Shown here piece after piece: positions 882-63,294 of a stretch of DNA of 64,000 nucleotides (its first letter is position 1; the number at the start of each line of letters is the position of its first letter). Source of the stretch: Crossaster papposus (Eukaryota; Echinodermata; Asteroidea; Velatida; Solasteridae); assembly GCA_037893245.1 (NCBI GenBank), contig JBAIAA010000074.1:1178001-1242000 (forward strand), read 5' to 3'. The notes beneath the pieces were generated by a model that had not been told where the DNA came from, made no database searches, and saw only the letters and a list, made by a program, of their open reading frames with translations. Made by a program: the position numbers and the translations under genes.

Positions 882-1332
882 CATGTGACCCGCTCCATCG
901 AAATCAGGAATAAGTCTCGAAATGACTTTTTGATATGCACATGGTGAGAAAGGGAATTTCATAAGCTTTCTAATGATACCCATCACAAGTGTGTTACTAT
1001 TTAGGTTAATGAGTTATGGTCTAATGAAGATGACAGGTGTATATTTATTTGCCGAATCCACATTCCGAGAACAACAGCTTTGAAATAAACAAAATTGACC
1101 AAAATCATAGGGACAGCCGAGCGCACACAAATCCTCTTCATTTTCATCGTTATTGATCGTTTTTACATACAAGACATTAATGACAATAATCTGTGATAAC
1201 TACACTTCCTAAAAATACAATGTTCAGAAAATCGACTTGGTCACGATTTTCACCCATGCGTTCACTTCAACGGCCGGTTGCGTAAAACGGCCTCAGCGAC
1301 TTATTCCTGATTACGATGGAGCGGGTCACATG
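882..1332. mobile_element. MITE, TGTGACC-end group (copy 1)
   Basis: The ends are inverted repeats: CATGTGACCCGCTCCATCGA on the left, and GGAGCGGGTCACATG closing the right, with complementarity extending about 35 bp to AATAAGTCG / CGACTTATTCC. Six more elements in this window share the outer TGTGACC and a following AAGTCGCA-like block but differ between them (59005, 60238, 61075, 62313, 62968, 26354). There is no transposase, so it is non-autonomous. Confidence 0.8.
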
Positions 1333-1827
1333 CAAAAATGTGCCGAGTCCAGTGTTTCTATGGGGAACACAATTTTGTACACAGCTTTTTTTCACAGACA
1401 CTATGCACAAAAAGATAGTCTGTACGAGCCTCCACCTAGTTATGGGGACAGGCTCTTTTGTTTGGAAAAGAAGACAGACCGAGTATTGGGGACTTTTTCG
1501 AGTCTCCATACATAGCGCGTTGGGTCTTCAGTAAAGGTAGAACAAGGGAAAATTGGGTTAGGGTATAATGAAAGAAAATGAAGAAGAGGACAAATTAGGG
1601 TGATGCTGAAAATTTTAGAATTTTAGAGTGTTCTGAGTTTGAGATTAGAGAGATTTCAGTTTACACACAAACCATATGGGTTGTCCCCATAACGCAATGT
1701 ACCAAAAGAAATACTGTGTATTTTTGTGCTGCTGAACAACTGACCCAAAAGGTGACTTCTGCATCTACAGGATGGTTAAGATTATTATATCAGAATATGA
1801 GCTTCCTTACCACAGTAAAAACAATAC
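1333..1827. other. No gene recognised
   Basis: Short overlapping open frames at 1237-1534 on both strands run through the right end of the neighbouring MITE and have no recognisable domain. I see no splice-bounded exon. Confidence 0.45.
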
Positions 1828-2088
1828 CAGTCTATCATTGATGTGAATACTGATATCAGTGCCTCAATAATTTATTGCCTGTGAAATCAGCTTGGTCTGA
1901 AAAATTGTTTGAATAGAATTCATTGTGCCAAGGTAAGTATAAGATCAAGGGCCAATACAACGTACCAGTCTATCATTGATGTGATTACTGATTTCAATGC
2001 CTCCATAATTTATTGCCCGTGAAATTAACTTTATATCTGAAAAATTGTTTGAATAGAATTCATTGTGCCAAGGTGAGTATGAGATCGA
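1828..2088 (+). repeat. Tandem duplication, about 136-bp unit, two copies
   Basis: The block beginning ACCAGTCTATCATTGATGTG occurs at about 1828 and again at about 1965. Both copies run through the same TTGTTTGAATAGAATTCATT segment and end near GTGCCAAGGT. The copies differ at scattered positions, so this is a diverged local duplication. Confidence 0.8.
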
Positions 2089-2347
2089 GGGGCCAATTTC
2101 ATACAGTGTGTAAGCACCAACATTTGCTTACTGTAGCATAAAAATTCGTCCGTGGGAACAAAACAGGGTTACAAACCAACATTTTAGTTGATGTTTTTTG
2201 TTGTTTGTGACTGGTTTTCATCTGGTTTTTGCTTTGAATGAAAAGCACATGGAGTTTTGACAGATAACCTGTTTATAAATTACTGAGCAAGACTTTTTTT
2301 GCGCTAATTACATTTTTGTGGTTACATGTTTTATGAAATTGGCTCCA
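2089..2347. mobile_element. MITE, GGGGCCAATTTCAT family (diverged copy)
   Basis: The left end GGGGCCAATTTCATA and the right end TATGAAATTGGCTCC are inverted repeats. The inner sequence, with a GTAAGCACCAACATTTGCTTA-like block and a GTTACAAACCAAC block, resembles elements at 18342 and 52715. It is non-coding and non-autonomous. Confidence 0.65.
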
Positions 2348-2369
2348 GGTTGTTTTCAAATTCCCCTAA

Positions 2370-3112
2370 GGGGCCGTTCACAATTATCAACATTTTCACA
2401 AGCGTACAAACCGTACGCTGGGGGGGAGGGGGTTAATGCCCGCCGTACGCTTTCGCTTTCTGAAAAAAATGTCGATTTATTTTCCCGCCCGCCACAGCTG
2501 GCATTGCGCGCATCCTACCAACGCCGCGCGCAACGGGCCGAGCGAGGGCGCTGCATGGCCAAGTCGGTCGCGCCCCGGCCTCGCATCGCGTATTCGTATT
2601 GTGTACAGCAGCGCGGCAGTGTAATGTACACATGTACATGTACTGTACATGTACATACATACATGTACATAGCCGCTGCGTGTTTTTCGTGTACGCCGTG
2701 GGATATGCATGGTTCGTTCGTGGTTCAACTGGCACTGACAATGGCGGACAATAAATGTGCTAGCGCTAGTCGTGCTGTTGAATTGGCTAACTTGTTGAAA
2801 TTCCTCACTCAACGAGGATGTATTGTCCAAAAGAACCCGACCAACAAATACATGGAGTTTGTAAATGCCTTTGCGTTTGTTAATAATGATCAACGCAAAC
2901 GAGCAGATGTCGTGTCTGAGGGCCAGAGATTGTGGCGGAATGCAGACCGCGTGTACCGTGAAAAGCTGTACGACGAAGTCGTACTACTAGATCAAGCGTT
3001 ATCGAACAAAAATCAACATTTTCTTTGTACACTTTTAGGGGGGGGGAGGGGGGTCTTAAAAAAGTGTACGGTTTGTACACTTGGGAAAATGTTGATAATT
3101 GTGAACGGCCCC
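2370..3112. mobile_element. PIF/Harbinger-like element, TAA target duplication
   Basis: The ends are long inverted repeats: GGGGCCGTTCACAATTATCA on the left, and TGATAATTGTGAACGGCCCC closing the right, continuing through a TACAAACCGTAC block. TAA flanks both ends (2367-2369 and 3113-3115). A 3-bp TWA duplication and G-rich ends are typical of PIF/Harbinger. The interior has a GC-rich, CpG-rich stretch at about 2480-2620 that looks like a promoter, followed by an ORF at 2741. No DDE transposase is present, so the element is a deletion derivative or carries a captured or second ORF. Confidence 0.75.
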
Positions 3113-3115
3113 TAA
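2741..3115 (+). CDS. Small ORF inside the Harbinger-like element, function unknown
   Basis: This is an ATG-started ORF of 124 codons with context GACAATGGCGGAC, downstream of a CpG-rich segment. The first ~95 residues (MADNKCASASRAVELANLLK and on) look like real protein: a helical, charged stretch with aromatic and basic residues (WRNADRVYREKLYDE). The remainder reads through the right inverted repeat, and the stop codon TAA lies exactly in the flanking target duplication. Harbinger elements normally carry a transposase and a Myb-like protein. This could be a remnant of the second protein or a captured host exon; I do not recognise the family. The same frame is open upstream to 2318, but without coding character. 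Confidence 0.4.
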   Translation: MADNKCASASRAVELANLLKFLTQRGCIVQKNPTNKYMEFVNAFAFVNNDQRKRADVVSEGQRLWRNADRVYREKLYDEVVLLDQALSNKNQHFLCTLLGGGRGVLKKCTVCTLGKMLIIVNGP

Positions 3116-3245
3116 ACCTTTTGACCTTTTTAACAAATATTGTCATATATGACTCTTGTTTTCACTTTACACGAATGCATACCACCCACCTACAATGTAC
3201 GAGTTACATCAAGATGTGGAGCGAGTATTTATGAAACAAACTAAC

Positions 3246-3589
3246 TTAAAGGTAGGATACATCATTGGCAGATATATCAAAAATATTTACTACCGAATTA
3301 ATAAGAAATATCTTACTCATTTGAAAGTAAATAATAATTCTAGGCATCCAGCAAAATTATTGCGCTAGATATCCTGTAATTATTGAGATCGCGAAAAAAA
3401 CTAAATAACATAAGAATAATTGCTCGACGCCGGTTGAAAACACACGATGTTTTTCGTGCTTTTCTCGGCATCCATGATTGTAAAACGTCGGACAGGTCAG
3501 TTAAACGATATTTACTATAAAGTACAACCCCCCAAATTCACCCATTCATAATAATTCAAGCAATTACCAATGGTGTATCTTACCTTTAA
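3246..3589. mobile_element. TTAA-flanked MITE, AAAGGTAGGATACACC family
   Basis: TTAA sits at both edges, with AAAGGTAGGATACATCATT on the left and AATGGTGTATCTTACCTTT on the right as inverted ends. The interior carries the family landmarks AGGCATCCAGCAAAAT, GCGCTAGATATCCTG, GACGCCGGTTGAAAAC and GACAGGTCAGTTAAACGA. It is a full-length copy of about 345 bp with no coding capacity. Confidence 0.88.
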
Positions 3590-6520: not shown

Positions 6521-6670
6521 AGACATTTTTATCACCCTGACCAGACCAAAAGTGTGACTGAAGACCCAACAAATCGGGCTGATTCAAGTTAAAATTGGCA
6601 AAAATTGATTTGTTCTTAATTTAAAAATTGAACCTAAATTTCGCGGACAGTCCCAGCCTCCTACGCCTAC

Positions 6671-7918
6671 TAGTCCAGGCAAAATACATAATTTTGTTTT
6701 GTTGACCTCAAACAAATTGCAACAAATTGTTTTTCACCACAGTGCACTTCTATAAGGTCCCTAGAATGACATACTAAAAATCTACAAAAATCCAAGTGGT
6801 GCAAATAATGTCTAATTTACATAAATCGTTAATCCCTGCCGTGTAATATGTTTATATTCCCATATTTGGGTATATATTTTATTTTTATTTTTTGAAAAGT
6901 TTATTTTGGCGAATATACTTACACATCCTTACTTCAATACATTTTCTAAAGCATGTAAGTGACTAAATAATTATGAAAATATAGTAATGGTCCAAAATGA
7001 CTACAATTATACCCTATCATTTGCACACATTTACCGTGTCTCCAGATGGTAGTCAGTATTGACGTGCTTCAAATTCACCAAGTTGCTTACTGGCACAGTG
7101 ATCATATTAAAACCTTATGGAAAATCATATGAACAATGATAACATTGTGATATTTAGCCCAGCAAACAAAAACTGGGAAAAAATAGTGCGTCCCTAAATT
7201 GGGCTAGCAAGTAGGTGAAGGGTTGCCTATATAAGGTGAGAGACTTGAACAAGTTCAAGGAAACCTCCCAAATTAAAGATTGTTGTTGCTTACAATAATC
7301 CTATCTACGTTAAAATGTATTTTGGGGATTTCCTTGAACTTGTTCAAGTCTCCCATGTTATAGGCAACCCCTTAACTACCTTTTCGCCCAATTTATGGAC
7401 ACACCATTTTCCTCCAGTTTTGGTTTGCTGGGCTAAATATCACATTGTTATCATAGTCCTATGATTTTTCATAAGGTTTTAATATGATAACTGTGCCAGT
7501 AAGCAACTTGGTGAATTTGAAGCTCACCAATACTGACTACTTGATGATATCTGGAGAAAGTGTAATGTGCGCACATTTATAGAGTCACGAAGTTGTCATT
7601 TTTGATAATTACTATGTTCTCATCACTATTCAGTCACTTATATGCATTAGCAAATGTTATTGAAGTAAGGATATGTAAGTAGAATCACCAAAATAAACCT
7701 TTCAAAAAATAAAAAATATATATATATACACCCAAATATGGGAATAAATATATTACGCGGCAGGGATTAACGATTTATGCAAATTAGTCATATTTCCACC
7801 ACTTGGAATTTTGTAGATTTTTAGTATGTAATTCTAGGGACCCTCTATAGAAGTGCACTGTGGTGAAAAGCAATTTGTTGCAATTTGTTTGAGGTCAAAA
7901 CTTATTTTTCCTGGACTA
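6671..7918. mobile_element. Foldback element: 1.25-kb near-perfect hairpin, TA target site
   Basis: The sequence from TAGTCCAGGCAAAATACAT (6671) to TTTTTCCTGGACTA (7918) reads as its own reverse complement over almost its full length, with a centre near 7290. Matching blocks include AGGGATTAACGATTTATG versus CATAAATCGTTAATCCCT, GCCAGTAAGCAACTTGGTGA versus TCACCAAGTTGCTTACTGGC, and GAACTTGTTCAAG on both sides of the loop. The element is flanked by TA, as expected of Tc1/mariner-type targets. It is non-coding. Confidence 0.9.
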
Positions 7919-13409: not shown

Positions 13410-13856
13410 GTGAGAATGGCACAAAGACACCAGACCATTCCAGAGCCTGGTAGCCGGCCGCGGCCGTCACAGATCCCCGATAGTCACCAGCTGTTTGTGG
13501 GTAACTTGCCCCAGGATGTCAATGACGACGAGCTGAGAGAATTCTTCTCGACTTTTGGCACTGTGGTGGAGATGCGCATCAATCGGAACACCGGCCCCAA
13601 GCCCCTACCCTACTTCGGCTTCATCGTGTTCTCTGACCGCACCCCAGTGCAGACCATCCTGAAACAGAAGACGAAAGGGCCTATCTTGCTTCGCGGTGAG
13701 CACCGTCTCAACGTGGAAGAGAAAAAGACCAAGAGGCCTGGCAGCGGGGGTCCCCCAAGGGGCGGAGCATCTGGAAGAGGCGGGCCCCGAGGTGGCATGG
13801 GGGGCGGAATCAACAAAGGGGGCGGCCCCGGGCGTGGCTACAACCCACAACGCTAA
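13410..13856 (+). CDS. G3BP: Ras GTPase-activating protein-binding protein (G3BP), last coding exon
   Basis: The frame gives up to 148 residues ending at TAA 13854-13856. Counting from 13410, an RRM fills residues about 25-104, with RNP2 LFVGNL (28-33) and RNP1 PYFGFIVF (67-74). It ends in the family signature [14 protein letters not shown], followed by a Gly/Arg-rich RGG tail (110-148). [11 protein letters not shown] and RLNVEEKKT are diagnostic of G3BP C-termini. G3BP binds RNA and caprin/USP10 and nucleates stress granules in the cytoplasm. The N-terminal NTF2-like domain and acidic/PxxP linker are not found in this window, so only the 3' exon is here. The exon start is uncertain: an acceptor AG at 13408-13409 fits the open frame, but another lies at TTCCAG near 13444. 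Base composition is GC-rich, unlike the flanks. Confidence 0.85.
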
Positions 13857-26102: not shown

Positions 26103-28553
26103 TCACTTGGTCGAGAGAAGCAAAGCGACGATTAGTCCGTACAATCCCAGGACTTCGGCAAAGATGAGGATTAGGATCATGCCGACGAAGAGCCTTGGCT
26201 GTTGCGCTGTGCCTCTAACTCCAGCATCGCCCACGATACCGATGGCAAAGCCCGCAGCTAGACCGCACAGGCCCACACTCAGCCCAGCGCCTAGATGAAG
26301 GAAGCTCCTAGAAAACACACAAAGAATATGGACAAATTAATCTCAATACTAATAGTGACCTGGCACCAACCATGAAATGAGCGGAAAGTCGCACAGGGCC
26401 AAAACGAATTATTGGCCAAAACGTTCATTTTTCAAGTGGGAGGTCGTTTTCGAGTTTTTATATACAAAACACCCTTCTTTATCATATCCCAAAATTGTAT
26501 AGCTCAATTAAAACTCTAAAGTGTGTTTTTTGGTGGCTGAATTGCACTGAGTGATAGTCTAGTTGGCACGGTTCACGGACTCAAAACAAGGGAGCATGAC
26601 TTCAGCTATTTCAAAAGAGTATAGCGGCGGCTAGGAATAAGCTACAGCAACACACAATACATCATTTGAAAACTTCGGACTTCTTTCTAGAAATATAATA
26701 ATGTAAATTTTGTTATTTTGCGACTTTCCACCCATTTCGTGGCGCCAGGTCACAATAGGTCTCTCTCAAATTTCCTACATATTGAGTGTCAACTTGCATG
26801 ACGCACGCTGGCTGCGCCATTATTCAAACACATTTAACAAGCACGTGTTTGGTACATCTCCCAACGCATGATTGATTGCGTAGAATCAAAGTTGCAGTTT
26901 TTTTTACCAAAGTGGCAGAGTTTTAGGAGAAATGCATCCTTACTTACATGCATTTCACATTAGTAGTTGTGTATTAACTAACAAAAATTTGAAGAACTTT
27001 CACAATTTTGCCGTAAACAATTCGGCCTTTCAAAATATTTGCGGTAAATGTTACGACCCACGTCCGAGTCACTTCAGCTCTGATTGCCGAGTTTCCAATG
27101 TGCATTAGAAGAGAGCAGGGTTCCCTGAAGCTCACTTCAAGTTCAGACTGCATGTACTTACTTGAATAGCGTGTAGCCCTCCCCTAACGAATTCGCAATG
27201 ACCACAGCCACCACCAGACCGTAGATAGCAATGATACCAGCCATAACCACAGGTATAACGGACTTGATAATGAGCTCTGGTCTCATTATACTCATGGCTG
27301 CAATACCCGTGCCGCTCTTTGCCGTTCCGTAGGCTGCTCCAAAAGCTAGAAAAGAAACAAAAACATACATCATACAAGTAATACAAAAAAAAGAGCAACT
27401 ACATAATACTATAGTAACCCCCCGTCAACCTATCCACGAGCAATAATTATCTTAGTGACATTTGTGAAGTTATTGTAAATAATTCAAAATATGCCGCGGT
27501 CCGGTACACATTTTACTCAACATTTTCCCTTTGCGATAATTGAATAAATGAGGAAAATAAATGAGATTCCCGGATGTCCGACCACGAGAATGCCACGGTG
27601 TCCAGTGAAGGAACTTACTTGGATTGTCCTTAGCCCTAGTCTATGACCTCGCACTAGAGTAGACTGTGCTGTAGGCCATACCGTGTTCAGTGCGCAAAGC
27701 TACGAATTTGTTTCATTTTTTTATGAACATCATTCGGTCTTAAACTCGGCATGCAGGTTCACTTACCATAGCGCAGCGATATTTCGCCAAAATTAGGACT
27801 TTTCCATGGTTCTGTCTGGTGTATTTTGTCTCTTTTGTGCAGCATAAGAAGGCTCGGCTAGGCAATATAGCGGAATCGACATGTACGCGCAGGTGCACAC
27901 AGCTCGTCGCGCCAATACAACAGCAGTTGTTTCATGAAATACCATTAACTGGTGCATGCTGCTGCATTATAATTATATGGCTGATGAAGACGAGCTCGGC
28001 TAGCCTTTGGTATTTCATGAAACCGTCGGTTTTGTTGGTGCGACGAGTGTTCGCCATATTGCCGAGCTGGCTCTTCATGTGATGACGTGCAGTTTATGCT
28101 GCACAAAAGAGACCAAATAATACACCAGACGGGACCATGAAAAAGTCCTAATTTTGTCGATATATCGATGCGCTACGAGTACGAGAAAAAAATGAACCTA
28201 TCTATAATCTATATGAGAAAAAAAAGGAAAGAAATCTGTAACTTTGCGCACTCAACACGGTATGCCTACAGCACGGAGTCTACTCTAGTGCGGGGCCATG
28301 GCATAGACTAGAGCTAGATTGTCCGGTGATAATCAAGTCTTGATGCAACAAAATATCTATAACCATGTTGATGTACGTTATATAGTTACAAAATTATTAA
28401 ACACAAACTCAAACGACCAGGGCAAGGCCGGGGTGTGTGCAAAAGAATGGAGAATTCACGATTCGTTTACTTACCACTGAAAACCATGGCGGCAGTAGCG
28501 CCCATTATGCCGAAAAAGGGAGTATACAGAGGTTCTCCAGCTGCACCAGACAT
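26103..28553 (-). CDS. ATP6V0C: V-type proton ATPase 16-kDa proteolipid subunit c, complete in three exons
   Basis: Minus-strand exons are 28475-28553, 27162-27345 and 26103-26307 (79+184+205 = 468 nt), giving 155 residues plus stop, the usual animal length. All introns have GT..AG (donors GTAAGTAAAC and GTAAGTACAT). The protein starts [20 protein letters not shown] and has the duplicated four-helix proteolipid fold: helices near 14-36, 53-78, 92-115 and 128-151. The proton-carrying glutamate is Glu139 in [11 protein letters not shown]. The first-half [18 protein letters not shown] and the second-half [20 protein letters not shown] loops are family hallmarks. The subunit forms the rotating c-ring of the Vo sector in lysosomal, Golgi and vesicle membranes. 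Intron 1 (27346-28474) holds a foldback element, and intron 2 (26308-27161) a MITE. Possible polyadenylation signals (AATAAA on the minus strand) lie about 90 bases after the stop, near 26008-26013. Confidence 0.97.
26354..26754. mobile_element. MITE, TGTGACC-end group, in ATP6V0C intron 2
   Basis: GTGACCTGGCACCAACCATGA..GAAAGTCGCA at the left is inverted with TGCGACTTTCCACCC..CGTGGCGCCAGGTCACA at the right. It is the closest relative of the element at 62313 (same GGCACCA / GAAAGTCGCA words). Confidence 0.85.
27630..28316. mobile_element. Foldback element in ATP6V0C intron 1, 8-bp target duplication GATTGTCC
   Basis: GATTGTCC occurs at 27622-27629 and again at 28317-28324. Between them the arms are inverted over about 200 bp: TAGCCCTAGTCTATG / CATAGACTAGAGCTA, GCACTAGAGTAGACT / AGTCTACTCTAGTGC, and TTTGTGCAGCATAA / TTATGCTGCACAAA. 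8-bp duplications fit hAT-type or P-type elements. It is non-coding. Confidence 0.85.
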
Positions 28554-31362: not shown

Positions 31363-31575
31363 CTACACGCTTAAAACTAAAGTGTTGAATCAACCTTATA
31401 AGTGTGCGGTCAGTGACTACACTTTAAAAGGTTGGATTTCAACCATAAAACTGTTGAATTCATCACATTGAGTGTTGAATTCAACAGTTTTATGGTTGAA
31501 ATCCAACCTTTTAAAGAGTAGTCACTGACCGCACACTTATAAGGTTGATTCAACACTTTAGTTTTAAGCGTGTAG
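31363..31575. mobile_element. Palindromic MITE, 213 bp, inside the LINE
   Basis: CTACACGCTTAAAACTAAAG at the left and CTTTAGTTTTAAGCGTGTAG at the right are perfect inverted repeats. The two halves remain complementary to the centre (CAACAGTTTTATGGTTGAAA region), giving arms of about 95 bp. The near-absence of mismatches suggests a recent insertion relative to the LINE. Confidence 0.9.
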
Positions 31576-36202: not shown

Positions 36203-39200
36203 ATGGCGGACGATCAGGACCAGACCGCTTGTGCAGCTGACGAGCAACCCAATTCTCCCAACGAGAAGGCTGATAATGAGGCTGAAAAGCGCGAATTCAT
36301 GCTCGGAGAACACGTGTGGTAAACGGTCACATTCTTGACGAGGCTTTGCCTACAAATGGTGTCATTATTTTTGGCTTTTGAATTTGTTGCTTATGACTTT
36401 ATTATGTGTTCATTGTTTTCATTCAATCCGTGGAATTGTGGGACTCCACCACAGTCTTATAATATAAGCCACTTTGGAGTTCCGACTGCGCATGTGCACA
36501 ACAAGATTCAACAATTTTTCTCAAGGAGGTCAAGTGATACAAACACGGCAGACAAATGCACACAAGGCTATGGGGGACGTGGTAACCAAATCCGCTTTTT
36601 TTACATTTTCTTGTGAAATTGAAAAAAATAAATAATATTTGTTCGAACAAATGTTTGGCCACACAAAGCGGCTGAAAACACCAAAACGTAAACAAAAATA
36701 TGTTACTTAGTAACTTTAAAACACGACGATCTCTTGAAATTTGCTGGTACCCCGCTATGCTTTTGCACGCAATCGATGAAATGTTTATATCGAAAGAAAA
36801 ATCGTCAAATCTTCATGTGCGCATGTGCAGTTGGAATACCAAATTGGCTTATTAATATATCACACACACTACACAGTCACAGAACATAGGATACCACATT
36901 GGTAATTGCTTGAATTATCAGGAATGGGTGAATTTGTTTAATTTTAAAGTAATTATCGTTTTACTAACCATTCCGAAGATGATGGATGCCGAGAATAAAA
37001 GCAAGAAAAACGGCGTTAATTTTCAACAGGCATGACCGGCGTCGAGCAGTTCTTCTTGTTTTTCTTGTATTTTTTATAAAATTTAGTTTTTCTAAACAAT
37101 TACAAGATATTTAGCGCAATCATTTTTGATGGATGCCTAGTTCTAGAATCATTATTTACCTACCAAAAATTAAGATATTTCAGTACAAATTGTCCATATA
37201 AATCTGCAAATGGTGTATCCACCTAGTCCGCTTTACCAAGTTTAAGAATCAACTGAATCATGCACCAAATTTCACCAAATTACAATTTTTTCTTGCACCA
37301 TAACACTTATTTCGACCAACACTTGTGACCGGTCCTACTATTCACCGACAACACCCGACAACACGCACAGCACCGACAACACACCGACAACAAATCCAAA
37401 ACATAACCTATATTGACCAAAAAGGTATAGCACTGTAATATACACGATACAAAAGAGTGTCATTGTGCTTGAGGTTACATTTCTTTTGTAAAAATGATGT
37501 TTTTTTCACGCGAAAAAAATATCTCTAACCAGCTTGGTCGTTGGCCGCCATCTTGCCTTCACGCGGAGTTGGCTTATACCATTTTATGTACGGGTGTGCA
37601 GAAAATGAACTTATCATGTCATACACAACAGAGGGCGCCCTGTACGGTTTTATGCTGAATTAAAGTTAGTTATTATTATTATTATTATTAATTTCTGGTA
37701 ATGAAACCAAGGATCCTTCAAAAGCGCTCAAGGCACTGTAGCTCGTAAGCCAGAAGAAACCCGTAGACAGAGGCTGTGTCAGCCAGGAACACCGGGGCAA
37801 ACCCCTTCTCTTAGCGATAAGTGTTCTGGGTTCTTTTACGTGCATTATACAATTTTATAATGTTATAATGGGAAAGATAATACACACATTATAAATTATA
37901 CAACACACGGGACCTACAACTTTACGTCCCATCCGAAGGACGAAGCAATAGTGGTTTAATTGCCTTGCTTTGTTGAAATGGAACGTGAGTTTTGATATGA
38001 CTTAATTGGCCTACTACATGTAATATGATTTTTTTCTAAGTAATATGGGGAGACAACATTATTATCCTAGTAGGCCATGTCATATCAAAACTCGCCTTTC
38101 AATCCAACTAACTTTAATTAGCATAAAACCGTACAGGGCGCCCTCTGTTGTGTATGACATGATAAGTTCATTTTCTGCACACCCGTACATAAAATGGTAT
38201 AAGCCAACTCCGCGTGAAGGCAAGATGGCGGCCAACGACCGTGTTGGTTAGAAAAAAAAATTCGCGTGAATAAAACATTATTTTTACAAAAGAAATGTAA
38301 CCTCAAGCACAATGACACTCTTTTGTATCGTGTATATTACAGTGCTATACCTTTTGGGTCAATATAGGTTATGTTTTGGATGTGTTGTCGGTGTGTTGTC
38401 GGTGAATAGTAGGACCCCTTGTGACTCTGATACCCGAAGGGTATTCCTTTTCACTTTTCTTAAATATAACCCTAATCCATTTTACCTCTACAGCTTTTTA
38501 TCTAAAAAGGGAGAAACCTTGTGTAAACGTGGGCAAGTCCAGTCCGAGTAACTAGGACCCTACTTATCGCTTTTTTAACATCTGGACATGATCTGGCGAT
38601 AGTAGGGTCCTAGGGAGTTCCATTGTTTTTTTGTACATTTAAATCAAAATGCCACTTATTCCAAATGTTTGCCCAAAAAAACCATCAGATTTCACTCTCA
38701 AAACGGCCACAAAAGTACTCGATAAGCCATCTGAGATACAAGTACACATCGACGATTAAGATTGTGGTACTAAGGTTTACTTACGATTCTGATAAAAAGC
38801 TGTACTGTACCGTTTCCGTGTACCGGCGACTGTTTCCTGAAGGAAACCAACACGCATCGCATACCACAAACGTCACCGGTACACGGGAACGCTACAGTAC
38901 AGCGACACGGCAGTATGCAAAGTGTCAGAGGCGGCGTGCGAAATTAAGCTGGAAATTTATCCGAATGGGCTCGGGCGACGCGAGTGATGATGAGGTGTGT
39001 GATGACTGCGCGATCATGTTATCGTGTATATGAATGGGGCCGGCGTAATCTCGTACGGCCTGTGCCAAAATTGCCGGACAGCGATGCTCCACTTTCACGA
39101 TGTCATTTGGACCGGTTTATTTGAAGCAATCATTCTGGAAATCGAAAAAACACAGGGTTTGATTCTATTAACTCAAAAATGAAACACAACTATAACAAAA

Positions 39201-39976: not shown

Positions 39977-40007
<31 letters not shown>

Positions 40008-43000: not shown

Positions 43001-46000
43001 TTAAATTTATTTCATTACTTTCATTTATATTTTCAAGTTACAAAAATGAAGATTTTACTTCAGTATTAATTTAAGATAGCCGACCCATGAATAAGGTGTA
43101 TTCACTTTATCCTTTGAGCTCAAACAATGTGTTCATTTTGCTGAACAGTTACATTAATTTTTGGTGCCTGTATAGCACTTGTCTTATTCTCAACCACTTA
43201 TTGAGAAAAAGATATGGTTAAAAACCCTGCCACACGCAGCAATATGTACCGATTGTCAAAATGACAACCCTTCCCAGTGCAGTGATTCATCAGGTCACAA
43301 AATCTTAAGTCCAAACTGCCTCAGAGTTTGTGGTCACCCAACGCAGCAGGATCCATCACTGGCATTGCTCAATGGGGATAACATGCATATAAAGACTTCA
43401 AAAGCAAAAGCCGCCAAACGCCACTTCCATGAAAAATAAGATAACGATATCAAATGAAAGCTCTCAATTACAGGATATCTAGCGCAATCATTTTGCTGGA
43501 TGCCTACAATCATTATTTACTTTCAAATAAATAAGATATTTCCGAATAATTTGGTAGTAAGATTTTTTGATATCATGAAACTGTGAAATTTGTGAACCTG
43601 AATATAGAAATTGCTAATACAAATTGCTAATTTGAAACAAAAGATGCCAGGTAAACTTTGAGGCTTTTGCATCTGAAGTGTTTACATGTAGCTCTTATTA
43701 GTAGTCTTGGACTCGGCCGTTATGCACCAGTGTTGACTGCTGAATGCATCAAAGTGTAGCAGACTTCCACCTGATGCACTGTGCTGCACTTGGCAGGGTT
43801 AGGATTAACTCTAACCAGAGTTGTATTCGAGTCCCTGCAAGTCCCTGCAACTCCATCACAAGTCCTTCAGTCTCAAGTCAAGTCACTAGCTATTCAAATG
43901 AACTGTTAACAAAAGCAATCCTTTGTCATTGTCATTGTTACTTGGGACTGGCTTTATGAAATGACTTGTGACTGGACTTGTGACTGGACCTGTGACTGGA
44001 CCTGTGACTGGACCTGTGACTGGACCTGTGACTGGACCTGTGACTGGACCTGTGACTGGACCTGTGACTGGACCTGTGACTGGACCTGTGACTGGACCTG
44101 TGACTGGACCTGTGACTGGACCTGTGACTGGACCTGTGACTGGACCTGTGACTGGACCTGTGACTGGACCTGTGACTGGACCTGTGACTGGACCTGTGAC
44201 TGGACCTGTGACTGTGACTCTAAAACAACACTGACTCTAACCCTCTAATGGTTCCTAGGACATGCCTGCTAAGTCCAACAGAGTCTAAAAGTGATTTACT
44301 TTTGTACTTTACTGCTCAATCCAACACAGTCCAACTCACCAAGTTGTTGGGTCCTGAAGTCAACATATAATGACTTGCCTGCTAAATCCAACAGGATTCA
44401 AATGTGTCTTCTTTGTTTGTTGGCTGTTGGATCCAACAGAGTCCAACTTGGCGCTATTTACCAGTATCTCAACAGATTGCAATTCTGAATGCGTTCTGGA
44501 ATATATCAAATGACCTGCCTGCTAAATCCAACAGGTTCCAACTGAAATGTCACCTGGTTGGATCCTGTTGGCTTTAGCAGGGTTAGGGTTAAATCGTAAA
44601 ACTTTTACATGTAAATATTAGAGAAATACACTAAACCTGGACACATCTTAGTGCAAGTCAGTCAATTCGGTGTACTGTAGTTATGGGCTCCATGCCTGAA
44701 CAAGACGAGACAATTTCTAATATCTTTTGAATGCCCCATGGAAGGGATAGACCATGTGTGGATTCAAGAGTGCGCGCCTACAGCAGAAACTACACACGAC
44801 TAATTACGCTGCCGGCAACTCTCTCTTTCTTGCGGTTGAGAGGGGGGAGGGGGAGGGGGGCAGGCAGTGCACGAAGGCCCACGCCGAGACCCTTTAGAGA
44901 CATTAATTTGGTGTCGTTTGTTTCAGTGCCTGGGTAAGAGCGGAGAACCTGTGCTCCTACATTGAGCACAAGGAGCGTCTGTGCAAAGCGGCCAAGGGTC
45001 AGAAATTCAAGAAGGCGATGGATTCCATCGAAGAGGCCATTAGTCAGGAAGAAAATAAGGTGAGACCAGGCAGCAATAGACTTTTAATGTCAGGAACCGA
45101 TTCTAGATTATAGAACCGAGTACCCGTAATCAACTTTACAAACTGCGTATAGTAACTTTTCAGATGATGAAAGCAAAAGGTTTTGAATGTCATTTGTTGG
45201 GAATTTGTTTAATGAAATCAGGCTATGTAGGAAAACAATGTATGTAAATGTATACATGAATGCATACGTACAATGTGTCATTTTATTTAAAGTTTCGAAA
45301 AAAACTGTGTTATACATGTATATGAAAATTTGAAGCCCAATTCCAATCAAACTTGGGTCATGGATGCAATAATGTCACCTTCATATTGTTGTTGTGTCAA
45401 AGTTAAAGTACTAATGTCAAAAGTCATTTGAGGTAAAGTTCTGAAAAAGGCTGAACTTGAAATATGTGTGTCTCATTTGAAAATTTGAGGTTCAATTACA
45501 ATCAAACTTGGGTCATGAATGCAATATTGTAACCTTTATATGATGTTCCGGTCAAAGATCAAGTACTACTAAGGTCGAAGTTCATTTGAGGTCAAGTTGT
45601 AAAACCAACTGGAATTGTAAAATTTGTTTTATTTGAAAGCTTGAGGTCCAATTGTAATCAAACTTGGGTCATGTGTGCTATGGTGTAACCTTCATATGGA
45701 TGGTCATGTCTAAGGTCAAGTACTAAGGTCAAAGGTCATTTTCAGGCAAATGCAAGCGAGACACGTGGCTCAATAACCATCCTTGTTTAAATTGACGACG
45801 CTCTCGGATTTGCAGTTTACATCTTTAAGCAAAGCTCACTGTAAACACTTCTATCTTGCTGTATTAGCTCACTGATGTGGCAGTATTATAGTGTGGTCCT
45901 TTATGCTTTAAGCTGAAAAGGAACTTCTGAGATATATATTTTGGGGTAGTTTCTTTAAAGGATACCCGTTTGTTTTTTGTATTCGGGTACCCGGTTCCCA

Positions 46001-53099: not shown

Positions 53100-54656
53100 C
53101 TAGCACTGTATAACCTCTATTTCTGGTCGTTCCGGCTCGGTTTTATCCTTGACCAAGCGATTGTTTTCAAAGTCGTCTTCGTGAGATGAGTCGCCATCTC
53201 CGTCCCCTCGCTGGGACAGTCCCTCGGTCTCCTCCGCAACTTGTTGGGATGTTACAGATTCAGTTTCCGCGCGCGTAGTTGAGCCGACAAACCAGGCCCC
53301 GTTGGGATTGACAATGTCCTCGTTGCTGGCGCTTGTGACCAGAATGAGGGGAAGGTTGTTCCCCTGAGTTGGCTCCTCTCCCTCCTCGATTGGTAGATCG
53401 TGCACCGACGATGCTGGGGATCCTGTTGATCCATAGGTGGGATTATCAACTTGGACAATATTCGGCGGGGTGTGCCGGCGCCGTCGAGGAAGCAGCCTGA
53501 TCCCCCTACGACGTGACACGTAGAGAGCCAGCACGGCCAGGATTAAGACGATGCAGATAGAGAGAATGATGGCGAAAATTGTCATGACCGTTTTGGTCCG
53601 ATTCTGATCGTTGCCACTATCTAAGAACAACGTCGGTCGTTGAGGAGTCTTGTTGTCCGGCGAGTCCTCGGTGGTACTCAGTACCGGATCAGTCTTCTGA
53701 TACAAGCACACTTCCTCGATTAAGCTACCGGGCGACTTCGCGTACGAGGTGGGCATGCCGTATCCGTACGCCTGCACGCAAATCTTGTACAGCGTGTTTG
53801 GGCGAAGGCCCGAAAGTTTGTGCGTCGTACAGGTCCCGTCCAGCCATTCCCGTTCCACTATCGGACTGGTTCCCGTCGGGTTCTCCACGGATTTGATGCG
53901 GAAATCCATCACGTCCCTGTCGATGCTCCACTGGACTGCGATGTGGTAACCGGACACCTCGCCGACTCGCAGGCTAAGCCAGTCGCCCCGGTGCCATTTG
54001 CAATATTCGCCGCCGAACCCCGTTGGACACTCGCACCATCCAGACACCGCGACACCTGGGTGACAAGTTCCTCCGTTTTGGCAGGGTTCCCCATCGCAGA
54101 AGCCGCCGTGCCTAGCACGTCTCTTCTCTTTTTGATGGCAATCTGTTACCCCTGAGTGTATAATTCTTACGGGTTTTCCGCCAATTTGCTTGGGGAAGGA
54201 GCACGTCGTGCCTTCCAAGTTCAAAACTTGAAGGGATACCGTTGCCTCCATACTTTTCGACATTTCCAACTCTGATTTCAAATTGCAATCACATCGTAAA
54301 GGATTATGCGACAAGTCCAGCACTCGCAATCTCAACAACTGCCGAAATGTTTCACCTGTAATGTTAGCAATCTCGTTGCTGTGGAGATACAATTCTTTCA
54401 GGTGGACCAATCTGGAAATGTCTTCCCCTCTCATGTTCGTTACCCTGTTGCTGTCGAGAATGAGTCTTCTTGTTTTCGGCGAGACGGGTGGTATTGTCTC
54501 CAGCCCCGTGTATCCGCAATCAACGACGTAACCCCGACGACACACGCACATCCTCGGGCAGTCGCGGTTCACTGTGGCCAATCTGCGGTGGACACGATTG
54601 CTTGCGACACAGATCAAGTAGCCAATGAGCATCAGAAGCAGAAGTTGTTGTGACAT
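53100..54656 (-). CDS. VASN-like: Vasorin-like single-pass membrane protein (LRR-EGF-FN3-TM), single exon
   Basis: 518 residues, ATG at 54656, stop TAG at 53100. It starts with a signal peptide, MSQQLLLLMLIGYLICVASN. The LRRNT cysteine cap is C33-C47 (CPRMCVCRRGYVVDC), followed by three leucine-rich repeats (about 63-117: RRLILDSNRV, LKELYLHSNEI, LRVLDLSHNPL). The LRRCT cap is RCDCNLKSEL to C173. The EGF module is 187-219 (CDGEPCQNGGTCHPG..CECPTGFGGEYC) and the FN3 domain about 224-317 (LSGLRPNTLYKICVQAYG). A transmembrane helix lies at about 357-380, then a basic anchor (RRR, RRRRR) and an acidic tail with NPTY (405-408). N-glycosylation sequons are at N98, N335 and N352. The order matches vasorin, which sheds and binds TGF-beta, but vasorin has about ten LRRs against three here, so this may be a lineage-specific relative. 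GC-rich coding sequence without introns. Confidence 0.85.
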   Translation of the reverse strand: MSQQLLLLMLIGYLICVASNRVHRRLATVNRDCPRMCVCRRGYVVDCGYTGLETIPPVSPKTRRLILDSNRVTNMRGEDISRLVHLKELYLHSNEIANITGETFRQLLRLRVLDLSHNPLRCDCNLKSELEMSKSMEATVSLQVLNLEGTTCSFPKQIGGKPVRIIHSGVTDCHQKEKRRARHGGFCDGEPCQNGGTCHPGVAVSGWCECPTGFGGEYCKWHRGDWLSLRVGEVSGYHIAVQWSIDRDVMDFRIKSVENPTGTSPIVEREWLDGTCTTHKLSGLRPNTLYKICVQAYGYGMPTSYAKSPGSLIEEVCLYQKTDPVLSTTEDSPDNKTPQRPTLFLDSGNDQNRTKTVMTIFAIILSICIVLILAVLALYVSRRRGIRLLPRRRRHTPPNIVQVDNPTYGSTGSPASSVHDLPIEEGEEPTQGNNLPLILVTSASNEDIVNPNGAWFVGSTTRAETESVTSQQVAEETEGLSQRGDGDGDSSHEDDFENNRLVKDKTEPERPEIEVIQC

Positions 54657-55558
54657 TGTCTCTTCGCCTCATTGTCGTGGTAACCTCCTTCTTCTGAAGA
54701 GCCCCAGTTCTGTAGCTCTGAAAACTCGCTAGCACATCTGAAATTTGGGAGTGAAAAAAACCCAGAAAATTTAAATATATTTATGTAACTGTACACATGA
54801 AACATGTACAAGTACATGTACATCGATTGGCATTATTTTTTTTACCGTAACACTAATGTTGTGCAAAACAGACCCGAAACCGAATTCGGGTCTGGTCGGT
54901 TTTTCCATCATTTTAGTCGGGTCGGTTTCGCGTTTGTGATTATCAGATTACAGCCAAATTTACGGTACATCAAAATATTAAAAAAGACCGGAAAAGATAC
55001 ACTAATTATTTTACACCACGAGATGGTACATGTACCCCGGTACATGTAAGTTAAACGAGGGACATTGCTTGATCGATCAGTATCCATGCGATACTGGTAT
55101 AACAAACACAATTTAGGAACAAAACATTTGTGGGTTTTTTTTTTTTTAAGTTGACTTCTGTTTTTGTCGGTTCAGGTCAGGTTTTTCCTTAATCTTTGGT
55201 CGGGTAACACATAAACACATACATCTTTATATGTTATCCCTGTAGAAAAATAGCATTTTTCTTCCTTTTGTTTCTGTACGTAAGCATTCCTCTGTAGACT
55301 TTGTGAACAAATTCCTTGTGAAAACATCCTTAACCCATAGAATTTTCCTTATTTGTCCTCTATTGTTTGTTGTAATCCACAAGGTACCAAATTTACAAAC
55401 AAACAAACACATTGCTGTCAGACATCCGGGAACTTTGTTCATCTTCCTCGTTATTTATGCGCTTTAGTGGGAAGGGGAACATTTTTTATTTAATGCATGG
55501 TGCTATCAACAGCTTGCCCCTTTGTGACGTCATGCTGACCTCGAGAATTTGTTTGGTC
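54657..55558. other. Vasorin-like 5' flank and a repeat with CCGAAACCGA / TCGGGTCGG words
   Basis: 54657-54740 (minus) is GC-balanced and may be 5' UTR. 54855-55206 carries ACCCGAAACCGAATTCGGGT, GTCGGGTCGGTTTCG and TTGGTCGGGT, looking like a decayed inverted element. No other gene is seen. Confidence 0.4.
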
Positions 55559-57850: not shown

Positions 57851-57935
57851 TGTGTATTTTTTTTAAAGTCACAAATCATAGTTTCGCTCATATTTTATAT
57901 TGTTCTTGTATGGATAAATATAACATAAACCACTT

Positions 57936-58313
57936 GGGTATGATACACCATTTTCAGATTTCAAAAATATTTACTACCGAATTATTAAGAAATATTTTAA
58001 TTGAAAGTAAATAATGATTGTAGGCATCCAGCAAAATGATTGTGCTAAATATCCTATGATTGTTCAAAAAAAATTGATAAAAAAACAAAAATTCACGATC
58101 GCTGGACGGCGATCGCAAAAAAACAGAACAACATAAGAACCACTGCCCGTCGGCAGTTGAAAACGAACGCCATTTTTCTCGACATCCATGTTTGTAAAAC
58201 TTCGGACAGGTCAGTTAAACGATATTTATTATAAAATACAACTCTCCAAAACCACCCATTCATGATAATTCAAGCAATTACCAATGGTGTATTACTTGTA
58301 TCCTACCTTTAAA
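57936..58313. mobile_element. AAAGGTAGGATACACC-family MITE
   Basis: Left end eroded (GGGTATGATACACCATTTTC). The right end ACCAATGGTGTATTACTTGT..ATCCTACCTTTAA has a small insertion. Interior landmarks GGCATCCAGCAAAATGATTG and CGATCGCTGGACGGCGATCG are present. Confidence 0.85.
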
Positions 58314-59004
58314 AAACTGTAACTTTGCTTTGTGCAGCAAATCTTTATCTTCATGCCCTTTGTCGATGTGGTGTGGTTTGCAGGAAACCTCCACTATAAT
58401 TAATTTTCAGTGACTCGGTAAACTGAAATTCACAAATCATTCAGCCCGTAATCCAAATGCCGAGACAGAAACGACATTAATAACACGACATTAATATTAA
58501 AGGGGTAATACATGTACCTTTTGCAGCTATCCGTAAATTAACTAAACAAATTACACGTACTGTTGAACAGCTTACTTGTTGTAAATATATTAATGATTCT
58601 AAACTCCCTGTGAAATTATTTCGTCTGGCGTGCTATCATCTTGAAGAAAATAACAAAAGAATGCCATTTTTGAATGTGCGTCTCGGAAATACATGTACGT
58701 CTCGGAAATACATGTACATTGTAGCGCTACCATTAGTCTGTATAGTGCGTGACATGCGAGTTGCTGCAATCCGCTGGCTGAGAACGCGCCCATAACGCAG
58801 ATTGTGGTCGCAATTCAAATTGTGACTCCGCAAATTTTGAATTGAAATCAAACTCTTAGAATTTTGTTTTCTTGGAATTTGCAGCATTCACAGAGCTAAA
58901 AACATTATCAGGTTGTTTGTCAAGCATCTTTTTTTATATTTTGAGCACTTTTGCTGCTTCAAACAATAACAATTCACAAATGACAAAAATACACAAACAA
59001 CAAA
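58314..59004. other. No gene recognised
   Basis: A 19-bp direct repeat, CGTCTCGGAAATACATGTA, is at 58679-58716. No exon is seen. Confidence 0.4.
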
Positions 59005-59382
59005 TGTGACCTGCTCCTACGAAACCTGACATAAGTCGCACAGTCTATTTCGAGATACAGCTCGTCAAAGTTGAAATGGGTGAAAAATCTGGCGGACATC
59101 TATTTTAGTTTTTCATTATTTTTTGATTCTTTACTTTAAACAAAATCAACTTTATTGATCAAATCATGCATTTATTGAGGCAAACTGTGTCCTAAAAGTG
59201 GTAATTTATCTCTCAAATACATCAAATCTTCCATAGATTTCCGCTACTCTCTTTGACACTACACACTAACCTACCTATATAAAATGAAATGAAGGCTGCA
59301 GGTTTGTACTATTGGAAATAACAATATCTCACTTGAAACAAATAAACAACACTTATGTCTGGTTTTGTGGGAGCAGGTCACA
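59005..59382. mobile_element. MITE, TGTGACC-end group (GCTCCTACGAAACC type)
   Basis: TGTGACCTGCTCCTACGAAA..CATAAGTCGCACAG at the left is inverted with ACTTATGTCTGG..TTTTGTGGGAGCAGGTCACA at the right. Closest relative: 62968-63294. Confidence 0.88.
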
Positions 59383-59399
59383 AATTGTCTGTTGTCACT

Positions 59400-59786
59400 T
59401 TAAAGGTAGGATACACTATTGGTCATTGCTTGAATTATCATGAATGGGTAGATTTGGGGGGTTGTATTTCATAGTAAATATCGTTTAACTGACTTTTCCG
59501 AAGTTTTACAATCATGGATGCCGAGAAAAGCACGAAAAACAGCGTTTGTTTTCAACCAGGGTCGAGCAGTTATTCTTATGTTATCTTTGTTTTTTCGCTC
59601 TCGCCGTCCGGCGAGAGCGAATTTTTCTTTATAAAATTCATTTTTTTGGAATAATTACAGGATATCTAGCGCAATCCTTTTGCTGAATGCCTATAATCAT
59701 TATTTACTTTCAATTGAGTAAGGTATTTCTTAATAATTCAGTAGTAAATATTTTCGATATCTGCAAATGGTGTATACTACCTTTAA
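59400..59786. mobile_element. TTAA-flanked AAAGGTAGGATACACC MITE
   Basis: TTAA edges; ends AAAGGTAGGATACACTATTG and CAAATGGTGTATACTACCTTT. Central palindrome CTCGCCGTCCGGCGAG. Full length, 387 bp. Confidence 0.9.
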
Positions 59787-60237
59787 ACCTGGTACATATT
59801 GTTTGTTTCTCCGCTTTCGATACACGGTCCTGGTTTTGTAACATTGTGTAATTATTGATCTTTGTCAATGGACTACAATAATGTTGCTTTTGGTTTTCAT
59901 GCATGTAATACAGTATACATTTGTGTCGGCGATAAATAAATTTGCTTTTTTTCTTTCGTTTTCGAAAAAGTAATGGTGTTACAGCAAAAAATCGACAGCG
60001 TAGGAAATTAGGAAATTTATTTTGAAATATAAAAATAAAGACTGTTTTAAAGTAGTTTTCTTTTTATTAAACTATTTTACTTGTGTTCCCGTGATCTTAA
60101 AAAATGTTTGTTTCTCTTGTAAATGTTCATCTATTTGTTCATCTATTTTTTAGTTATTCATATTTTTCCTGTTTCATCTGATATCAACTGGTTACTTAAT
60201 CACTTCAATGAAAGAAATGTTCGCTCGCACAAGCACA

Positions 60238-60878
60238 TGTGACCTGTCACCACAATATGAGAGTTAAGTCGCACAATATGAGAGTTAAGTCGCACAATAT
60301 GAGAGTTAAGTCGCACAATATGATTCAGAGATTATGGCCGTCCATAGTCAAAACATGAAGGAGTGGTCAATTTTAAAATTTTGCGTAATTTGTAAAGCCT
60401 AAGTCCTCCTCTACATATTCCCATTTTCAGATGATCAAAAACCTCTTAAATTACGCGATTTTGTGTAGTGTTTGCGTAATTAGTGTTTGGATTAAAGTCC
60501 ATTAGTGGTCTAATTAACACGGTAATTAAATATGCAAATTAGGTCCTCGTAACTATCTCACGTTTTTAAAATTTTGATATTTTGTTGTTTAGTGTGGAAA
60601 GTTTTAAGAAGAAATAATGATTAGAACATAGCCGTTGCTATACTTGTCCTGTTTTGCGAACTTTTGCGTGTTTTGTTAATACGTTTATTAGGTAAGTTTT
60701 CTTTACAAACACGTTTTGTGAAACCCATGACTTTCTGGAGCGCTGTAAAATAAATTTATCGCAAAACTCCCAGGTGTTATGTACCATTAGAAAGCTTTTT
60801 CTCCAAAATTTTAAAAATACTAAAATCTCCATTTTCAATTTTCCCAACTTTACTCTCATATTGTGGTGACAGGTCATA
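60238..60878. mobile_element. MITE, TGTGACC-end group (TGTCACCACAATATGAG type)
   Basis: TGTGACCTGTCACCACAATA..TGAGAGTTAAGTCGCAC at the left is inverted with ACTCTCATATTGTGGTGACA..GGTCA at the right. The block CACAATATGAGAGTTAAGTCG is tandemly repeated about 3-4 times at the left end (60252-60320). Confidence 0.85.
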
Positions 60879-61074
60879 TATATGCCTTGTTTGTATGCGC
60901 GTTTTGCCTCCATTTTTGGCCCCCTCCCCCGCTCCCCACAAATGCTGTATCGCCACTGTAAAGTGAACGTACACTTTTTTTTAACATAAACAAGAATAAT
61001 TGCAGTACAACTGTAACATTAAGTTCTTACCTCGCTATTCGCCGGTGCAGAAAAAGAAACGGCAATAAGCTATA

Positions 61075-61506
61075 TGTGACCTGTTCCAACGAAACACGGA
61101 CAAAGTCGCACAATGTGTTTTGTCACAATGTACCGGTACTACTCCTGAAGTCATTTCTGGATGGATTTTACCATTTTGAGGTTTTAGGTTTTCCTAAGTC
61201 ACTCACTATTAATCTACAATCTCCTAAAATTTGAACAAAATCCGTCTACCAGAAGTGTGTTTTTTGTCAATTTTGTGAAACATTTGTGTATAGAAATAAT
61301 ACGCTTTTCTGAACTTCAAAGCTGTTTATCTCATAATTAGGTTGTCAGGGTTTTATCACTAAATCCAGACCCCAGGGAAGATAGGGTGGGGGTACATATG
61401 TAAATGATACATCATTTTAAAGCTGAGAACCTAGAGAATTTGAAAAAAGCAAAATCTGAAAAACTAAAAAGTCGACTTTGTACGGGTTTCGTTGGAACAG
61501 GTCACA
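61075..61506. mobile_element. MITE, TGTGACC-end group (TGTTCCAACGAAAC type)
   Basis: TGTGACCTGTTCCAACGAAA..GACAAAGTCGCACA at the left is inverted with GTCGACTTTGTACGGG..TTTCGTTGGAACAGGTCACA at the right. Confidence 0.88.
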
Positions 61507-61790
61507 TATATTAGTCAGGGTTTCCCCACCCCCTTTGCTACATTTTTTACCCCAAGTGGCTTTGTGGCATTTACCAGCTGGTACAGAGTGATTGATTATT
61601 CACTGGCCTGGTAAGAGTTGACATCCAGGTTTATGTGAATATTGTACAATCCAGGAGCCTGTAAAATGAGAGTTGTATGGGCTAAATGAGACGGAACTGG
61701 GCAGAGGTTGAAATCAGGAGTATTGATGTTAAGAACGAGAATACAATTCTTACAATACTGTTTGTTGGGCTTCAATCGGACATTCTGTTA

Positions 61791-62183
61791 CAGTCAAACC
61801 TTGATATAGCGGCCATCGACGGTGCCGGTTTTCGTGGCCACTATACGCAAGTGGCCACTATAGCAAGACGTACACATGTACACACACCCATACATGTACA
61901 TGTATGAAGTCCAGGAACCAAACAACAGGGGAGATTTCAAAGTCAACAGAGGGCGCACTTCATTTCTGCGGCCGGAGTACACAGGTTTCACGGCAATGTA
62001 ATTGTACACATTTTATTTGCTGTGGGCTATTATGGGTTGGCCACTGGCCGCATTACGCAGTGGCCGCATTAGCAGAAATGGTTATGGTATGTTTATGCAA
62101 GAATCAAACTGGGACCAAGCAAGGGTGGCCAGTTAAGCCAGGTGGCCGCTGTATCAAGGTGGCCGCAATGGCAGGTTTGACTG
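61791..62183. mobile_element. pogo/Tigger-like MITE, CAGTCAAACC ends, TA target
   Basis: CAGTCAAACCTTGATATAGC..GGCC at the left and GGCCGCAATGGCAGGTTTGA..CTG at the right are inverted with TA at both edges, as in pogo-type Tc1/mariner elements. GTGGCCACTATA- and GTGGCCGCATTA-type words recur inside. Confidence 0.85.
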
Positions 62184-62312
62184 TAATACATTGTAAGTTA
62201 TGCCTGTTAAACAAATTGCATTCATTGACATGTTGCCAAAGTAAAATGCCTTTGAGTTTGTTCACATGTAATATTAAAGGAAAAATGGCACTTTCTACTA
62301 ATTCTTTACAAA

Positions 62313-62731
62313 TGTGACCTGGCATCACGAAATGGGTGGAAAGTCGCAAAATAACAAAATTGACATTATTACATTTCTAGAAAGAAGTCCTTAGCTTTTA
62401 AATGATGTATTGTGTGTTGTAGCTTATTCCTAGCCGCCGCTATACTCTTTTGAAATAGCTAAAGTCATGTTCCCTTGTTTTAAGTAAACGGAGTTCAAAG
62501 TCTGTGAACCGTGCCAACTATACTATCACTCAATGCAATTCACCCACAAAAAAACACACTTTAGAGTTTTAATTGAGCTATAACATTTTGGGATATAATA
62601 GAGAAGATTTTTGTGTATGTAAAAACGTTAACAACTCAAATTCGACCTTCAACTTGAAAAATTGATGTTTCGGCCAATAACTTGTTTTGGCCATGTGCGA
62701 CTTTCCTCTCATTTCGTGGTGCCAGGTCACA
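62313..62731. mobile_element. MITE, TGTGACC-end group (GGCATCACGAAATGG type)
   Basis: TGTGACCTGGCATCACGAAA..TGGAAAGTCGCA at the left is inverted with TGCGACTTTCCTCTC..TTTCGTGGTGCCAGGTCACA at the right. Internal sequence matches that of 26354-26754 (for example GAAAGAAGTCC, GTATTGTGTGTTGTAGCTTA), in the opposite orientation. Confidence 0.88.
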
Positions 62732-62967
62732 AATATGGTTAGTAGACATAACCAATTTTATTACAAATAACAATAAATCAGAAAATTGAAGAAGAAAAAA
62801 ACGCATCCCATTCACTTTTTTGCATTTTTCTCCACTGTGGCCTGTGCCCAGTTTCATCTCATTTTGCCAGAACGCCTCACAAATGTGTGGGATGCTCAGT
62901 TTTGGCTTAACAGTTTTTGTAAGGTTTGAACTCTGCTTGTGGTGTACTTCTTTCTAGAAAATACACA

Positions 62968-63294
62968 TGTGACCCGCTCCTACGAAACCCGACATAAGTC
63001 ACACAGGCTATTTCGAGATACAGCTCGTATTTTTTTGCAGAAGATTAGCAGAAAAAAATCTAAATTTGATCTTACTGAGCGTAACCCAAGAAGTAAAATG
63101 TAGCGCAATTAGTTAACTATTCATAATTTGATGTGTGTAATGACCGCTGGTTTTGCTCAATATTTGATATATTTTTTATAATACCCTATAAACTATATAT
63201 CATTTTAAAGCTAAGAATTCAAGGAATCTGAAAATACCAATATCTCACAATATAAAAATGCCACTTTACTCTGATTTCGTGGGAGCAGGTCACA
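62968..63294. mobile_element. MITE, TGTGACC-end group (GCTCCTACGAAACC type)
   Basis: TGTGACCCGCTCCTACGAAA..CATAAGTCACACAG at the left is inverted with GATTTCGTGGGAGCAGGTCACA at the right. It shares TATTTCGAGATACAGCTCGT with the element at 59005. Confidence 0.88.

Follow-up and report, generated by a model that had tools for sequence, protein, structure and literature searches.

Elements with a common end type in the window

The DNA analysed here is a stretch of 64,000 nucleotides (the window) from the genome of the asteroid Crossaster papposus (contig JBAIAA010000074.1), in which seven elements of 327-641 bp carry inverted repeats of one end type with TGTGACC as the tip. These are miniature inverted-repeat transposable elements (MITEs), i.e. 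non-autonomous cut-and-paste DNA transposons, of one large family, which combines small size, a 34-bp terminal inverted repeat (TIR), a target duplication and high copy number with no transposase-like frame seen. Neither inspection by eye of the open frames listed over the seven elements nor a Pfam search limited to four frames of the window revealed a transposase. A first-pass annotation of the letters alone had listed seven such elements, and our scan of the window for paired ends recovered all of them, with the start of the first one corrected from 882 to 884.

This first element (884-1330, plus strand, 447 bp), with the TIR TGTGACCCGCTCCATCG..ATCAGGAATAAGTC and arms that differ at 2 of 34 positions, is flanked by CA and TG, without a 2-bp duplication. 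An exact 2-bp duplication borders four elements: one of the GCA subfamily on the minus strand (26354-26754, 401 bp, AT/AT), one of CTC.T type (59005-59382, plus strand, 378 bp, AA/AA in the context A|AA|T) with arms differing at 5 of 34 positions, one of the TTC.A subfamily (61075-61506, plus strand, 432 bp, TA/TA in the context A|TA|T) and another of the GCA subfamily (62313-62731, plus strand, 419 bp, AA/AA in the context A|AA|T). The flanks CA/TA, without an exact duplication, are found at a TCA-subfamily element of approximately 641 bp (60238-60878, plus strand), whose right tip is GGTCATA, and at a chimeric element of 327 bp (62968-63294, plus strand), whose arms differ at 9 of 34 positions.

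The left end of the element at 60238-60878 holds a 21-bp unit, made of inner TIR sequence, three times (60254-60316); this tripling is confined to the left arm, which implies that an arm can expand without its partner. The element at 62968-63294 is a chimera of two subfamilies, with a CTC.T-like start (bases 1-61, 93% identity to the 59005 element) and a CTC.C remainder (bases 61-327, 88% identity to an element of the CTC.C, or CTCC, subfamily). In a genome search with this element, the 39 scored matches besides itself (40 of 2,295 candidates scored) all start within bases 44-68 of the 327 and extend to its right end or nearly so. The corresponding search with the element at 61075-61506 (best 40 of 1,386 candidates scored) returned full-length matches throughout, 39 of them non-self and with 96-97% identity, and the TTC.A subfamily is young. 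In addition, the MITE at 59005-59382 lies inside an imperfect larger inverted repeat (58117-59595), whose arm pieces measure 119 and 62 bp, and seems to be nested within another inverted-repeat element.

The ends of the family are homologous and of equal length, with the 34-bp consensus TGTGACCYG-NNN-C-N-AYGAAA-(7 variable)-AAGTYG and scattered substitutions, and those of the window elements align over 34 bases without gaps, except for four extra bases in the left end at 26354. TGTGACC is the tip in every subfamily seen, mutated copies aside; the earlier description of all seven elements as beginning with it therefore holds for the family tip and fails for the 26354 element, which reads AGTGACC at its left and TGTGACC at its right end. 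The AAGTCG or related block noted inside each end was found near TIR positions 28-34. The bases in between do differ from subfamily to subfamily as reported, not as unrelated strings but as variants of this common layout, chiefly at positions 10-12, 14 and approximately 21-27, besides the scattered substitutions. Positions 10-12 and 14 (block A) are mostly TTC.A, CTC.C, GCA.C, TCA.C, CTC.T or CTC.A, and the seven bases preceding AAGT are more variable than block A. Inside approximately base 34 the matching stops, and the subfamilies hold two distinct arm-specific subterminal sequences. The elements are thus, as had been supposed, related subfamilies with one end type and mostly matched, subfamily-specific arms, and the case of unrelated transposons sharing seven bases by chance is excluded by the common 34-bp layout, the 2-bp duplication and the target.

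Copy number and target site

Genome-wide counts were made over the 1.02-Gb genome. A 20-base tip pattern gave 3,186 + 3,189 matches and its reversed control none, so that the similarity of the ends goes far beyond chance. The shorter tip pattern AWWTGTGACCNG gave 29,735 matches vs 1,480 for the reversed control, i.e. approximately 28,000 tips in excess, a total of tips and not of insertions, as another repeat carries some of the CTC.A tips as fragments and the assembly has allelic duplicates. Among the loci extracted, L010 and L013 show the two strands of a single insertion, and L026 and L029 probably those of a second one, present as allelic duplicates. When ten loci with partnerless CTCCAAC tips were compared, six (L001, L091-L095) had a common, near-constant outer flank, mostly ..TTGTACTATT, L005 shared only about 30 bases of it and L096-L098 none. 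The common flank of the six indicates that a MITE end of the CTCCAAC type is carried inside another dispersed repeat, and hence that the tip counts include some carried copies.

The window and loci L001-L068 provided 77 paired elements, of which 70 were left once identical sequences had been removed (34 from the search with TTCC ends, 29 from that with CTCC ends, five from the first eight loci and two more from the window). An exact 2-bp duplication is present in 58 of these 70 pairs, compared with 20 on average and at most 34 in 10,000 permutations of the right flanks; by set, this corresponds to 32/34 (TTCC), 20/29 (CTCC), 5/5 (first eight loci) and 1/2 (window). The target-site duplication that the first-pass annotation had asked for thus exists and is 2 bp long: at 29 sites of the TTC.A (TTCC) subset, 28 match over 2 bp and none over 3 bp, and a 3-bp match was seen in one of the 70 pairs overall. 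The duplicated dinucleotide is TA at 27 of the 58 sites, AA at 16, TT at 10, AT at two, and GA, TC and CT at one each. With both strands of the 58 sites considered, A stands at position -1 and T at +1 in 92% each, and C at -2 together with G at +2 in 42%, which describes a palindromic target A|WW|T with CA-TA-TG as its best form. Genome-wide, AWW precedes 5,480 of 6,375 tips (86%, vs 12% by background composition), and its A position is occupied by A in 5,728 (90%). Borders of the form ACA|TGTGACC, in place of AWW, occur in the window at 884, 60238 and 62968 and in the assembly at C1:3088983 and C1:3089409; in the latter pair both borders are ACA, and the flanks are hence complementary (CA..TG) and not duplicated.

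Origin of the end-to-end junctions and of the matched arms

Since the tips begin with TG and end with CA, the two borders of an insertion read A|WW|TG and CA|WW|T. Each end, together with the duplicated dinucleotide, thereby rebuilds the target, and copies consequently often sit end to end: the genome contains 338 junctions of the form CNGGTCACA-WW-TGTGACCNG, vs none for the control and approximately 25 expected if about 14,100 elements inserted uniformly under a position-weight model derived from the 58 sites. The resulting excess of about 14-fold is rough, as the model omits old copies, allelic duplicates, local insertion and dimer movement. The last of these could provide a different origin, in which the junctions are amplified dimers and not products of repeated insertion into borders; two adjacent elements could move as a single unit and the excess over expectation is large, both of which speak for dimers; junction interiors together with outer flanks were read at L054. 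However, the 42 junctions matched by a longer pattern fall into 18 subfamily combinations, the commonest accounting for 6, and while their dinucleotide is TA in 37, borders with TA, AA and TT all occur, so that we regard dimer amplification as unlikely and favor repeated insertion into rebuilt targets. At L054, three elements of the CTCC, TCA and TCA types stand in a row, neighbours sharing one TA, and the right tip of the third is identical over its first 32 bases, including an unusual A, to the right tip of the first element before it continues as its own subfamily.

The arms of single elements present a second question. Block A is identical between the arms in 17 of 18 plus/minus neighbour pairs from the exact-tip listing, and the seven-base variable block in 9 of the same 18. 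Of the 70 pairs, 52 have the same block A in both arms, 65 differ at no more than one of its positions and 5 at two or more. The claim that left and right ends match in every element fails at 62968 and 59005, as given above, and in the CTCC subfamily, whose arm consensuses differ at four fixed positions of 34 (21, 23, 25 and 33); covariation of the arms subfamily by subfamily stands as mostly matched block A, and upkeep of the match within each copy is not supported. Gene conversion or hairpin-templated repair had been offered as possible causes, and, if ongoing, would keep the arms of each copy identical, in agreement with the subfamily-specific blocks common to both arms of most elements and with the tip exchange visible in L054. 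Yet in the 17 of 29 CTCC pairs that were usable (12 gave no clear orientation of the arms), the arm difference within a copy is 3.12 comparable positions, not below the 3.04 between copies, and one derived change is common to both arms vs 1.4 expected. Moreover, the four fixed differences persist in this subfamily, and the sequence beyond approximately 34 bp is specific to the arm. The strongest control comes from touching ends of different elements, which, although only 2 bp apart (n = 42), have an identical block A in 4 cases vs 7.7 for random neighbours and at most one difference in 13 vs 16.0, a deficit short of significance (P = 0.07 for 4 or fewer). Standing close together does not make ends alike, whereas membership of one element does, and we consider ongoing conversion within each copy very improbable. 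The matching is instead explained by inheritance: the arms of one subfamily mostly match because its copies descend from one founder, and occasional recombination accounts for some exceptions, such as the element at 62968 and the third one of L054.

Together, we hold it highly probable that this is a non-autonomous MITE family with a 34-bp TIR and a 2-bp duplication at A|WW|T, whose arms are inherited from founders and whose borders rebuild the target and thereby give rise to arrays. The end layout, the duplication, the target, the copy number and the division into subfamilies are observed directly; the steps that link them are inferred. A transposase encoded elsewhere would recognise both ends and mobilise the copies in trans, and each subfamily would expand from a founder with arms that already matched, since an end that did not match would serve the transposase poorly. 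The dependence of the transposase on both ends is the likely force selecting matched founders, and the matching would thus be inherited and not maintained copy by copy. Every insertion would rebuild the target on both sides, where further copies of any subfamily could insert, leading to arrays in which neighbours share one dinucleotide. Such arrays may permit deletion or tip exchange between neighbours, a plausible route to chimeras of the kind seen at 62968-63294, and that element could itself have arisen in this way.

Several observations weigh against this reading. Three of the seven window elements (884, 60238 and 62968) are without an exact 2-bp duplication, and 12 of the 70 pairs are without a matching dinucleotide, some of them being decayed, chimeric or mispaired (L066). 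The 12 of 29 pairs dropped from the conversion test leave room for rare or ancient conversion, and the tip of the third L054 element shows that tip exchange occurs. The founder model alone does not explain how the same new block came to stand on both arms of a founder. Finally, an autonomous element or a transposase carrying such ends was not found in the parts of the genome that were searched for one.

MITEs are common, and both families and multimers of them have been described before; what looks new is the combination of a relaxed 2-bp WW duplication, TGTGACC tips and arrays formed by borders that rebuild the target. With a landing site rebuilt by the element itself and hundreds of junctions in one genome, the family lets target choice, and likewise the divergence of matched ends from subfamily to subfamily, be studied in a clean natural experiment. 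The end-to-end excess of roughly 14-fold is directly testable against transposase-guided targeting.

Relation to known transposon groups

A full-text literature search found no named transposon family with these ends, although a name may exist in a repeat database. Literature searches on ISL2EU, on 2-bp duplications, on MITE multimers and on echinoderm MITEs brought up no match either. TA, the commonest duplication here, is the target of Tc1/mariner elements, in an ATAT-like context to which the core A-TA-T corresponds, and Stowaway-type MITEs of that superfamily are likewise small, numerous and bordered by a 2-bp duplication that is often TA. However, Tc1/mariner duplicates TA, whereas 31 of our 58 duplications are exact copies of other dinucleotides (AA, TT, AT, TC, GA and CT); unlike in Stowaway, the duplicated pair can be any WW and occasionally others, and the tips differ. 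With TA at just 27 of 58 sites, Tc1/mariner was rejected on the duplication, and membership in it is quite improbable. Harbinger derivatives without genes are known, and Tourist/PIF MITEs of maize and rice form multimers by inserting beside or into each other through their target preference. The arrays described here differ from these multimers in that the border itself rebuilds the target and the junctions share a single dinucleotide.

By target logic the closest known group, though not established as the source of the family, is ISL2EU of the PHIS elements, for which the relevant passages of PMC4482050 describe the target A|AT|T, a 2-bp AT duplication and TIRs usually starting with GG (a further source for this comparison is a portion of PMC9179366). 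ISL2EU and the present family have in common a 2-bp duplication, an AT-rich palindromic target preceded by A and followed by T, and an animal host, in which transposase relatives are numerous: a search of the genome with the HTH_Tnp_4 profile (PF13613) gave 150 scored matches among 495 candidates. ISL2EU elements carry between their ends a transposase with THAP, HTH and DDE parts as well as a YqaJ protein. In two of four wider stretches read around such matches (L072 and L073), a second frame, labelled YqaJ-like by eye, adjoins the transposase frame. On the other hand, the tips here are TGTGACC and not GG, the duplications TA, AA and TT are far commoner than the published AT (2 of 58 sites), and 14 of the 150 scored PF13613 places, read in part, contained no TIR of the TGTGACC family. 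That our elements are ISL2EU MITEs, moved by an ISL2EU-like transposase, of which this genome has many, is therefore a serious possibility that nevertheless falls short of an even chance.

The other PHIS groups, Spy and PIF/Harbinger, also prefer AT-rich targets, but the same passages of PMC4482050 give no duplication for Spy, at AAATTT, and a 3-bp TWA duplication for Harbinger, compared with 2 bp here; PIF/Harbinger was rejected on the 3-bp matches (0/29 in the TTCC set, 1/70 overall). IS481EU, considered for its TGT..ACA ends, was rejected on the duplications of approximately 4, 15 or 25 bp stated in the part of PMC10045372 that deals with it. It would go further to regard the family as a TIR lineage outside the published definitions of PHIS and Tc1/mariner, which duplicates almost any WW pair, targets itself through TGTGACC termini that rebuild the target at both borders, and forms mixed arrays where recombination between tips can give new subfamilies; this we put forward as a rather doubtful proposal.

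The autonomous partner whose existence the first-pass annotation had left to be checked was found neither among the PF13613 places read nor among the long TGTGACC-ended stretches examined. At the former, four stretches of 5.5 kb and ten of approximately 1.2-1.5 kb on each side, so that ends further out would be missed, nothing but single 9-mers with at most one mismatch to TGTGACCTG was present. Among the latter, C3:1050773-1053500 (L069) was rejected as a long autonomous element because it is a TTC.A MITE with a nested 2.2-kb element (164-2363 of the locus), which has CAGTCACAATT-like ends and a TAA duplication read by eye. L001, extended by 4.7 kb (L090), showed no partner for its own end, only another family pair some 5 kb further along; inspection by eye revealed no transposase frame there, and one frame looks like a reverse-transcriptase fragment. 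One PF13613 match, at C1288:90445, sits in an open frame reported as 12,957 codons, far over the length of a transposase.

Other features of the window and the assembly

Other long inverted repeats of the window, at 37371-38404 (arms of 144 and 140 bp with 96-97% complementarity), 6702-7898, 31363-31575 and 27677-28264, resemble foldback or TIR elements that belong to other families. A short-unit tandem array at 43886-44248 is open in several frames on both strands (e.g. a repeating CDWT). Host coding sequence is represented by a long open frame on the minus strand with LRR, EGF and FN3 matches (53100-54668) and by an RRM stretch on the plus strand (13410-13856), which we take to be of the G3BP-like type. 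Outside the window, the mitochondrial cox1 (contig C1841) yields the residues conserved in this protein when AAA is translated as asparagine and ATA as isoleucine, as in the echinoderm-type code, which points to an echinoderm or a near relative as the probable host. Contig C8 of the assembly (>5.2 Mb) has cox1-type matches that are open in the standard code, and looks bacterial.

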